Assembly: GCF_000483125.1 (NCBI RefSeq)
Contig: NZ_KI519553.1
Location: 933,912-997,911, forward strand
Source of the DNA: Atopobium fossor DSM 15642
GTDB taxonomy: Bacteria; Actinomycetota; Coriobacteriia; Coriobacteriales; Atopobiaceae
DNA: 64,000 bases
Direction of reading: 5' to 3'
Positions 55,608-57,763 of this stretch are shown here, one piece after another. Position numbers and translations under genes: made by a program. The notes beneath the pieces were generated by a model that saw nothing but the letters and a program-made list of their open reading frames with translations, made no database searches and had not been told where the DNA came from. Each line of letters starts with the position of its first letter. Positions within the stretch are counted from its first letter, which is position 1.

Positions 55608-55830
55608 AGTTTCCTCTTTATAAAGTGAAGTAACATCACTGTGATGTTCTGAACCTACGCTCTTAATTGTACCCATCGCTTGGACATGACTGTAAACCGG
55701 ATAAGAAGGCAACAAAACACACGTAGTTACATCATGCCACCACAAAATATTTTATTTTTTTATGTGTATGTCACAAAAATGAACTTTTTTGTTACAAATT
55801 AGATTTAATCCTTAAAAGTGGGTTATAAAG

Positions 55831-55857
55831 ACCTTATCACAGACCGTGTGATAAGGT
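55831..55857. promoter_or_regulatory. 11-bp dyad at the promoter of the XRE gene
   Basis: ACCTTATCACA (55831-55841) and TGTGATAAGGT (55847-55857) form a perfect inverted repeat with a five-base centre. It begins just downstream of a -10-like TATAAA (55824-55829), so it would cover the transcription start and lies about 40 bases before the start codon of the small regulator. An autoregulatory operator is the simplest reading. Confidence 0.6.
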
Positions 55858-55898
55858 TCATAGCCCGATCGCTATGGTATGTAGAGAGGCATTTTGGC

Positions 55899-56159
55899 AT
55901 GGCTGATCAAGAAAAAGTAATCATTTCCGACGCATTGCGTTCCATCATTTCCGCTAAGGGAACTACGCAGTCAGAACTAGCTAAGGCACTTGGCGTAAGC
56001 CAACCTGCAATTGCTTCTGTTTTGGCTGTTGGTAACCCCCAGACCCGTGTTCTTAACAATATTTTGAACGTACTTGGCTATCGTCTGCTCATCCAACCTA
56101 AGGGTGCAGCTCTTCCAGAGAACGCCATTGAAATTACCCCTCGTCCTGACGAGAAGTAA
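55899..56159 (+). CDS. Small XRE-type helix-turn-helix regulator
   Basis: This 86-residue protein starts MADQEKVIISDALRSI and has a lambda-repressor-like helix-turn-helix: TQSELAKALGVSQPAIASVL (residues about 21-40), with the recognition helix QPAIASVL. A short C-terminal part after residue 55 (LGYRLLIQPKGAALPENAIE) is hydrophobic enough to allow dimerisation. The start at 55899 follows AGAGAGG and was preferred to a frame starting at 55818, which runs through a dyad operator. No partner toxin is adjacent, so it is not called an antitoxin. Confidence 0.85.
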   Translation: MADQEKVIISDALRSIISAKGTTQSELAKALGVSQPAIASVLAVGNPQTRVLNNILNVLGYRLLIQPKGAALPENAIEITPRPDEK

Positions 56160-56249
56160 TACGTAACACGCAAATACGTACACTACGTACAACAACAAAA
56201 AATATAACGCATGAAGAGGAGCTCGACGAGTGGAATGTAACCACATAAC

Positions 56250-56412
56250 GTCGAGCTCCTGCGTTGCAATTGTGAACCCACCTCTCATAAGGTGGGTGCC
56301 CTACTTGCCTGTTCCGGCTTCCTCAACAACGAAGGATCCTCGTACTAAGAACAAGAAACAGGCTCCCTGAAAAAACTTGTCGGTTCACCCAGTTAGCTCG
56401 CAGAAGCTCGAC
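56250..56412 (-). ncRNA. Probable 6S-like regulatory RNA
   Basis: A 163-base stretch can fold into one long rod. The ends pair: bases at 56399-56412 (GTCGAGCTTCTGCG on the minus strand) with 56250-56263 (CGCAGGAGCTCGAC), 14 pairs with one G-U. Inside, GTGAACC pairs with GGTTCAC, then come an open central part, a GCCTGTTTC/GGAACAGGC stem with an upper hairpin, and a small CCCACCT/AGGTGGG hairpin on the 3' side, as in 6S RNAs. A -10-like TATAGT (56419-56424) would start transcription exactly at the first base of the closing stem. 6S RNA binds RNA polymerase holoenzyme in stationary phase. No protein-coding signal is seen. It could be another structured RNA. Confidence 0.6.
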
Positions 56413-56418
56413 ACCTTT

Positions 56419-56424
56419 ACTATA
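56419..56424 (-). promoter_or_regulatory. -10 element of the 6S-like RNA
   Basis: TATAGT on the minus strand, seven bases before the predicted RNA 5' end. The -35 region is poor (CTGGTA at 56442-56447 with a 17-base spacer). Confidence 0.45.
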
Positions 56425-56449
56425 CGGGATAGATAAATTGATACCAGTC

Positions 56450-56478
56450 TTGACTTAGTCGAAGTTATAGCGTGTACT
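56450..56478 (+). promoter_or_regulatory. Candidate promoter of the WecA/TagO-type gene
   Basis: TTGACT (56450-56455), a 17-base spacer and TGTACT (56473-56478) resemble a sigma70 promoter, about 65 bases before the GTG start of the transferase gene. It is divergent from the 6S-like RNA promoter. Confidence 0.4.
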
Positions 56479-56542: not shown

Positions 56543-57763
56543 GTGAGTTCTTACATTCCGTACATGTGCTTATACCTTGTTGCACTTATCGCAACCGTTG
56601 TTACTACCCCACTGGCAAAGCTTATTGCTCGTAAAGTTGGGTCTATCGATAAGCCCAGTAAACGCCGTATTAATAAAACACCCATTCCACGTATGGGCGG
56701 CATTGCTGTTTTTATTGGTCTGGTCGCCGCCGCTGCAACACAGTATATGGGGACCACATACTATCTATGGCCTGTAGTGCTTGTTCCCCACCCTGGCATG
56801 ACTGTTAATTACTACTTCCTTGCAGCATCCATTACCTGCATCTTTTTTGTTGGTGTATTGGATGATATATTTTCGCTCAAGCCACTGGTTAAGCTTACCG
56901 GACAAATCATTGCAGCCATTATTGCAGTATGCGGTGGTCTTGTTATTGGCAATATTTACAATCCACTTACCGAGAGTGAAATTGCTCTTAGTTTCTTCAC
57001 GTATCCCATAACCGTTGTATATTTGGTTGCTTACTGCAATATTATTAATCTGATTGATGGACTTGATGGTCTTGCCTCCGGTATTACCTGTATTGCAAGC
57101 CTTACCATGTTTGTGCTTGCAGCCGCAGCAGGACGCTTAGATGCAGCTGCTCTTTCTGTTGCACTGGCTGGAGCAACTCTCGGATTTTTACGCTTTAATT
57201 TCAATCCAGCAAGTATCTTTTTGGGAGACTCGGGCTCGTTGCTCCTAGGCTTTACACTAGGTGCCATTTCTTTGCTTAATGTTACCCGTGTAGCTGGTCT
57301 TACAACCATGATTATTCCTCTATTGGTAGCTAGCATTCCTATCATAGATACGCTATCCGCCATTGTGCGTCGTAAACGCGCACACGTAAGCATTGGTCAG
57401 GCTGATAAAGGCCATATCCATCACAGACTTATTCAAAGTGGCTTTGACCAGCGTCAGGCCGTATTACTCATTTATGCATGGACTGCCATGTTGTGTATTG
57501 GCTCTTTTGTCATGACTAAAGTCCCGGTTTGGCCACGCATGATTATCTTTATCATTTTGGTTTTTGCGTCGGGTAGCTTTGCTTCCAAGCTTCATCTCTT
57601 TGAGCCTGTACTACTTCATCATTATGATCCGGACACAGATGATGATGTACTCATTACACCCGATAATCCCGCTTTCGAGCAAGAAGCAAAGGCTCAAAAA
57701 CTTGAAAGTGGATCCTTACAAAAGCACTTTAAGAAACGTAAACACAAACAACCTAAACACTAG
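56543..57763 (+). CDS. Undecaprenyl-phosphate N-acetylhexosamine-1-phosphate transferase (WecA/TagO type)
   Basis: The enzyme starts the synthesis of wall teichoic acid or another surface glycan by loading a sugar phosphate on undecaprenyl phosphate. The 406-residue protein has about eleven membrane helices and the MraY/WecA landmarks: VGVLDDIFSLKPLVKLTGQ, NIINLIDGLDGLASG, FLGDSGSLLLGF and the cytoplasmic histidine loop GHIHHRLIQSGF. The C-terminal tail is highly charged. The start is GTG at 56543 with TAGGAG upstream. The preserved HIHHR motif favours WecA/TagO over MraY. Confidence 0.9.
   Translation: MSSYIPYMCLYLVALIATVVTTPLAKLIARKVGSIDKPSKRRINKTPIPRMGGIAVFIGLVAAAATQYMGTTYYLWPVVLVPHPGMTVNYYFLAASITCIFFVGVLDDIFSLKPLVKLTGQIIAAIIAVCGGLVIGNIYNPLTESEIALSFFTYPITVVYLVAYCNIINLIDGLDGLASGITCIASLTMFVLAAAAGRLDAAALSVALAGATLGFLRFNFNPASIFLGDSGSLLLGFTLGAISLLNVTRVAGLTTMIIPLLVASIPIIDTLSAIVRRKRAHVSIGQADKGHIHHRLIQSGFDQRQAVLLIYAWTAMLCIGSFVMTKVPVWPRMIIFIILVFASGSFASKLHLFEPVLLHHYDPDTDDDVLITPDNPAFEQEAKAQKLESGSLQKHFKKRKHKQPKH

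Follow-up and report, generated by a model that had tools for sequence, protein, structure and literature searches.

A probable 6S RNA gene in Atopobium fossor and its counterparts across the Coriobacteriia

The locus and the RNA strand

The 64,000-nucleotide window of the Atopobium fossor genome analysed here (the whole stretch of DNA under study, with positions counted from its first nucleotide) contains on its minus strand an apparent 6S RNA gene (56249-56412) of approximately 164 nt, with its 5' end near 56412 and its 3' end at approximately 56249, assigned by matches to the Rfam 6S family RF00013 (37.2 bits) and to R1, a model made from the sequences of 35 relatives (150.4 bits), as well as by covariation. 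Its divergent neighbour encodes a WecA/MraY-type glycosyl-phosphate transferase (Glycos_transf_4; 56543-57763, plus strand; Pfam PF00953, E 6e-40), which is next to 6S at almost every Atopobiaceae locus checked. A small HTH_3 protein with weak similarity to HipB-like antitoxins (55818-56159, plus strand) is also encoded beside the 6S gene, among the loci checked only in this species and Atopobium minutum.

An initial annotation had proposed a candidate 6S RNA at 56250-56412; all of the features that it listed are present, on the minus strand, a strand that it did not state. Its 14 terminal pairs form the closing stem between the 5' strand GUCGAGCUUCUGCG (56399-56412, minus) and the 3' strand CGCAGGAGCUCGAC (56250-56263, minus): all 14 positions pair on the minus strand, one of them as U-G, and the same position is a mismatch on the plus strand. 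The minus-strand fold has an energy of -77.2 kcal/mol versus a shuffled mean of -49.2 (z -7.3; equalled by 0 of 200 shuffles), and the plus-strand fold reaches a z of only -3.8; a plus-strand reading was rejected, its fold being weaker and its G-U pairs lost. Among the paired cells of 69 class-wide sequences (the row of locus L040 left out), there are 194 G-U and 57 A-C combinations, and the minus strand is therefore taken to be the RNA strand.

On the same strand, the helix P2 joins UGAACC (56382-56387) to GGUUCA (56273-56278) beside the central bubble, on the side of the predicted pRNA start. The 5' strand of the bubble, GACAAGUUUUUUCA (56368-56381, minus), is unpaired in the consensus. On the upstream side of the bubble, GGGAG (56363-56367, minus) forms the 5' strand of a helix in which GGG pairs with the CCC of 56294-56298, and the rod ends in an apical arm (56299-56362, minus) whose helices 5-7 show compensatory changes. 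The large internal bubble that had been annotated is present in the covariation-supported consensus, and is partly collapsed in the single-sequence minimum-energy fold, in which the 3' hairpin is extended. The small 3'-side hairpin, CACCCACCU-loop-AGGUGGGU, does have a 3' position when the minus strand is read; as the hairpin ACCCACCU-loop-AGGUGGGU (56276-56297, minus), it occurs in the minimum-energy fold and also when the pRNA template is blocked.

Upstream of the gene, a -10 element, TATAGT, occupies 56419-56424 on the minus strand, 7-12 nt upstream of the closing stem; ending 6 nt before the first stem base, it fits a start at 56412, as had been claimed for it. Similar hexamers, of the TATA(A/G/T/C)T type, are found 7-16 nt upstream of the 6S gene in most relatives. 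A near-palindromic conserved element, GTCAAGAC (56447-56454, minus), stands 22 nt before the -10 element, within the near-palindrome AGTCAAGACT; the genome has a single copy of AGTCAAGACTGG. On the opposite strand the element reads TTGAC, which is -35-like for the divergent gene. The proposal that GTCAAGAC is only the -35 of the divergent wecA was rejected in part, since its gap to the -10 element is 22-24 nt in most Coriobacteriales, across families and including genomes with another divergent neighbour. A regulator site and a shared core-promoter element are both possible readings of it.

Downstream of the gene, a hairpin at 56217-56260 (minus; minimum energy -29.2, z -5.05) is followed by a run of T at 56197-56202, and a similar hairpin is found in Atopobium minutum. 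The 3' strand of the closing stem can alternatively pair, perfectly, with 56217-56228, a downstream copy of the 5' strand. This hairpin is a possible terminator or a possible alternative fold. Several relatives have T's directly after the closing stem, so termination may be brought about by the rod itself.

Family assignment, covariation and gene order

At default thresholds, Rfam gives no match at the site. At relaxed thresholds, RF00013 matches 56249-56412 on the minus strand over its full model (1-187) with 37.2 bits, which falls short of the gathering score of 46.4 bits required for inclusion, and this is its only match in the whole genome (E 3.6e-6). Covariance search thereby bore out the annotated candidate, RF00013 being the sole meaningful family at the site; the matches to microRNA, snoRNA and Bacilli-1 families there were discarded as chance-level. 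RF00013 also matches 52 of 60 relatives, only one of which passes the gathering cut-off, and scores in the Coriobacteriia straddle that value (47.6 bits in genome G042, 48.3 bits in G216). The 6S RNAs of this class score between 20 and 48 bits with RF00013, so that a cut-off of 46.4 drops almost all of them; a class-specific seed would recover them. R1 itself does not match E. coli ssrS, and so is specific to the class; the deep link to 6S RNA comes from RF00013 and from gene order.

Covariation was assessed in a class-wide alignment fitted to R1, the 70 rows of which comprise 69 diverse sequences and the opposite-strand R1 match of L040 (25.4 bits), a near-palindrome of the same gene that was excluded from the G-U/A-C and conservation counts. 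In this alignment 93.3% of cells are paired, 21 of the 36 pairs show two-sided changes, and two-sided compensatory cells number 360, where shuffles give 95.8 (sd 10.6); with the structure slid by 1-3 columns, pairing falls to 36-52%. A structure-blind MAFFT alignment of 35 sequences gives 97.5% paired cells, with 70 two-sided cells versus 15.4. Compensatory two-sided changes occur in all six modelled pairs of the terminal stem, so the lack of covariation there that the initial annotation had named as refuting its proposal was not seen. In P2, 3 of the 7 modelled pairs are invariant in all 70 aligned sequences, and several, being nearly invariant, have no covariation support of their own. The GGG:CCC pairing of the upstream-side helix is found in 70 of 70 sequences. 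The segments CC, GGG, ACCCACCU and GG are identical or nearly identical class-wide, and the pRNA-start sequence is UGAACCGAC.

The gene is a general feature of the class: R1 matches 138 of 149 Coriobacteriia genomes, once in each apart from one weak extra match. BLASTN finds the sequence in every genome of the family but one, which is incomplete, and the same RNA is present in loci of Kribbibacterium, Collinsella, uncultured Olsenella and uncultured Atopobiaceae. In another class of Actinomycetota, that of genome G148, RF00013 scores above its cut-off in 27 of 36 genomes, and R1 recovers, at the same position, the ten strongest RF00013 loci of other Actinomycetota classes (E 4.6e-8 to 0.035). 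Certain 6S genes of those classes (for example, L061-L070 and L230) lie well above the Rfam cut-off. In the class to which G081 (9.2 Mb in a single contig) belongs, 148 genomes gave no match with either R1 or RF00013, the control genomes being positive for RF00013. This class, with its large genome and with 6C RNA (RF01066) in 27 of 40 genomes, is presumably the Actinomycetes. The 6C family is found neither at the site nor elsewhere in this genome, and gives one borderline match among 39 Coriobacteriia genomes. In the genomes scanned, 6S and 6C show a mutually exclusive distribution.

Gene order provides evidence of common descent that is independent of the covariance model. Outside the Atopobiaceae and Collinsella, aspS and/or rarA lie within 500 bp in 33 of 40 loci (aspS called by NCBIfam above its cut-off; rarA by the best AAA ATPase and RarA model matches, which are below their cut-offs). 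Among these 40 loci, aspS is upstream on the same strand in 27 and rarA is adjacent in 9, and three loci (L195, L199 and L208) have the order aspS-6S-rarA. The B. subtilis 6S-1 gene also lies near aspS. Where 6S genes pass the cut-off in other Actinomycetota classes, aspS is 78-139 bp away in the nine loci tabulated. In lactic acid bacteria rarA is the neighbour of 6S, and in B. subtilis the neighbour of 6S-1 (PMC8414754). Atopobium has lost the aspS/rarA neighbourhood.

The central bubble and alternative readings

In E. coli 6S RNA and B. subtilis, pRNA starts at U44 and C40, respectively (PMC8876501). Alignment of the bubble with these two RNAs places the predicted pRNA start at C34 (56379), a nucleotide identical in all 35 members of alignment A1, and yields a predicted pRNA 5'-GUCGGUUCACCCAGUUAG (56379-56396, plus strand) beginning opposite it. 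Proven pRNAs have GG at positions 4/5, and the 6S RNA has A 3' of the start (PMC8414754); the predicted pRNA likewise has GG at 4/5, with A 3' of the start in the RNA. When the template is blocked in silico, UGAACC cannot pair with GGUUCA, and ACCCACCU and AGGUGGGU make up the complete hairpin; because this hairpin also forms in the unconstrained fold, the calculation indicates compatibility with refolding, not causation. The single-sequence minimum-energy fold, for its part, resembles the state proposed for 6S RNA after pRNA synthesis, and is unlike the bubble state.

The low RF00013 scores throughout the Coriobacteriia, together with a function that is predicted, would suit a 6S-derived RNA that still binds polymerase without pRNA-driven release, or that has acquired another role in the class; this is very unlikely, as conservation is among the highest in the RNA at the pRNA template and along both P2 strands, and the refolding elements are intact. 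Less probable still is an RNA of the Ms1 type in function, which would bind the polymerase core without sigma and would not be 6S. Ms1, the rod-shaped RNA that was described in Actinobacteria as binding polymerase, is similar to 6S, but it measures approximately 300 nt and carries two extra terminal hairpins, whereas a single rod of approximately 164 nt is found here, running from the promoter-proximal stem and without the extra 5' and 3' hairpins. Ms1 has been reported as linked to a HAD-hydrolase and from 14 listed orders, none of which belongs to the Coriobacteriia; the present gene scores with RF00013, has orthologues at aspS/rarA, and contains a pRNA start region of the true 6S type. A palindrome arisen by chance, or a cis-acting or DNA feature lying between wecA and the polA/HTH region (an operator, attenuator or terminator), is a scarcely credible reading of the site, despite its intergenic position, the terminator-like hairpin after it and a divergent promoter-like TTGACT overlapping the upstream region, given that the RNA is kept beside differing neighbours (wecA, rarA, aspS or hisS) and covaries at the RNA level, G-U being preferred to A-C when one of the strands is read.

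The minus-strand gene (56412-56249) is, with high confidence, the 6S RNA (SsrS homologue) of this Atopobium species and one of a set spanning the Coriobacteriia. It encodes an approximately 164-nt rod with a closing stem, a large central bubble and an apical arm; it matches the 6S covariance model over its full length; and it has a hairpin on the 3' strand of the bubble and a pRNA-start sequence on the 5' strand. The aspS/rarA neighbourhood is found at loci of the class, Atopobium having a wecA neighbour instead. The 6S reading of the initial annotation gains independent support from the occurrence of the gene across the class in single copy, from the conservation of nucleotides in the bubble and from the aspS/rarA gene order.

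In other bacteria, 6S RNA jams RNA polymerase by mimicking an open promoter. For the Coriobacteriia 6S RNA, we infer expression, polymerase binding and pRNA synthesis. By analogy, its bubble would imitate a melted promoter, and the accumulated RNA would occupy the housekeeping sigma-RNA polymerase holoenzyme, probably in stationary phase, lowering the output of sigma-dependent promoters. Upon the return of nutrients, polymerase would copy the 6S RNA template from C34 into a pRNA beginning 5'-GUCGGUUCACCCAG; its synthesis would break the UGAACC/GGUUCA helix, and the freed ACCCACCU/AGGUGGGU would fold into the full hairpin, with ejection of the 6S RNA.

Relation to known RNAs

Ms1 is said to occur in Actinobacteria in place of 6S RNA (PMC9130861, PMC11077062). 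The remark in the initial annotation that 6S-like RNAs are poorly known in this phylum was correct: the same papers describe 6S as not identified in Actinobacteria save for a Streptomyces candidate. In the literature searched, no report was found that connects 6S RNA with Coriobacteria, Collinsella or Eggerthella, though older supplementary listings may mention one. The Coriobacteriia 6S RNAs belong to an established family that had been reported as not found in this group, and the set is mostly unannotated; the Rfam 6S cut-off omits most of the class, and its genomes are usually without a 6S annotation. The class-wide presence of 6S RNA means that the statement 'no 6S in Actinobacteria' fails for the phylum as a whole. 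We lean towards the view that the aspS-6S-rarA locus is ancestral in Actinomycetota: the Coriobacteriia and one or more further classes would have kept it, and the class of large-genome actinobacteria, in which Ms1 and 6C are found, would have lost it. If so, the switch from a sigma-holoenzyme-binding 6S RNA to a core-binding Ms1 occurred inside Actinomycetota. With this distribution as a phylogenetic bracket, one can ask at what point, and for what reason, 6S disappeared and Ms1 arose, and cultivable gut species (Collinsella, probably Eggerthella, and Atopobium) are available for testing an actinobacterial 6S RNA.

Collinsella-1 (RF01700), a candidate structured RNA from Actinobacteria and the human gut, was rejected as an earlier description of this RNA: where checked, it maps to other places in the genomes, and the present genome lacks it. 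Of 99 Coriobacteriia genomes, 8 carry Collinsella-1, some of them more than once, and its occurrence extends beyond the family of Collinsella. The 6C RNA is, like the present RNA, a small RNA of Actinobacteria, but its model has 75 positions and a different structure. The Ms1 RNAs of Actinomycetes (MTS2823, scr3559) share the rod shape, are structurally related to 6S and bind RNA polymerase; they differ in being approximately 300 nt long, in their extra hairpins, in binding the polymerase core and in their gene neighbours (PMC9130861). The 6S RNAs of other Actinomycetota classes (for example, L061-L070) also have a same-strand aspS approximately 80-140 bp upstream of them in the nine loci tabulated, but are AT-richer and score 92-102 bits with RF00013, in contrast to 20-48 bits in the Coriobacteriia. 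With the 6S RNA of Firmicutes, that of the Coriobacteriia has a rarA neighbourhood in common. Compared with 6S RNA in general (SsrS, RF00013; E. coli 6S and B. subtilis 6S-1), most Coriobacteriia members fall below the Rfam cut-off and the Atopobiaceae gene has moved beside wecA, whereas the length, closing stem, central bubble, 3'-bubble hairpin, apical arm, pRNA start context and single copy are the same.
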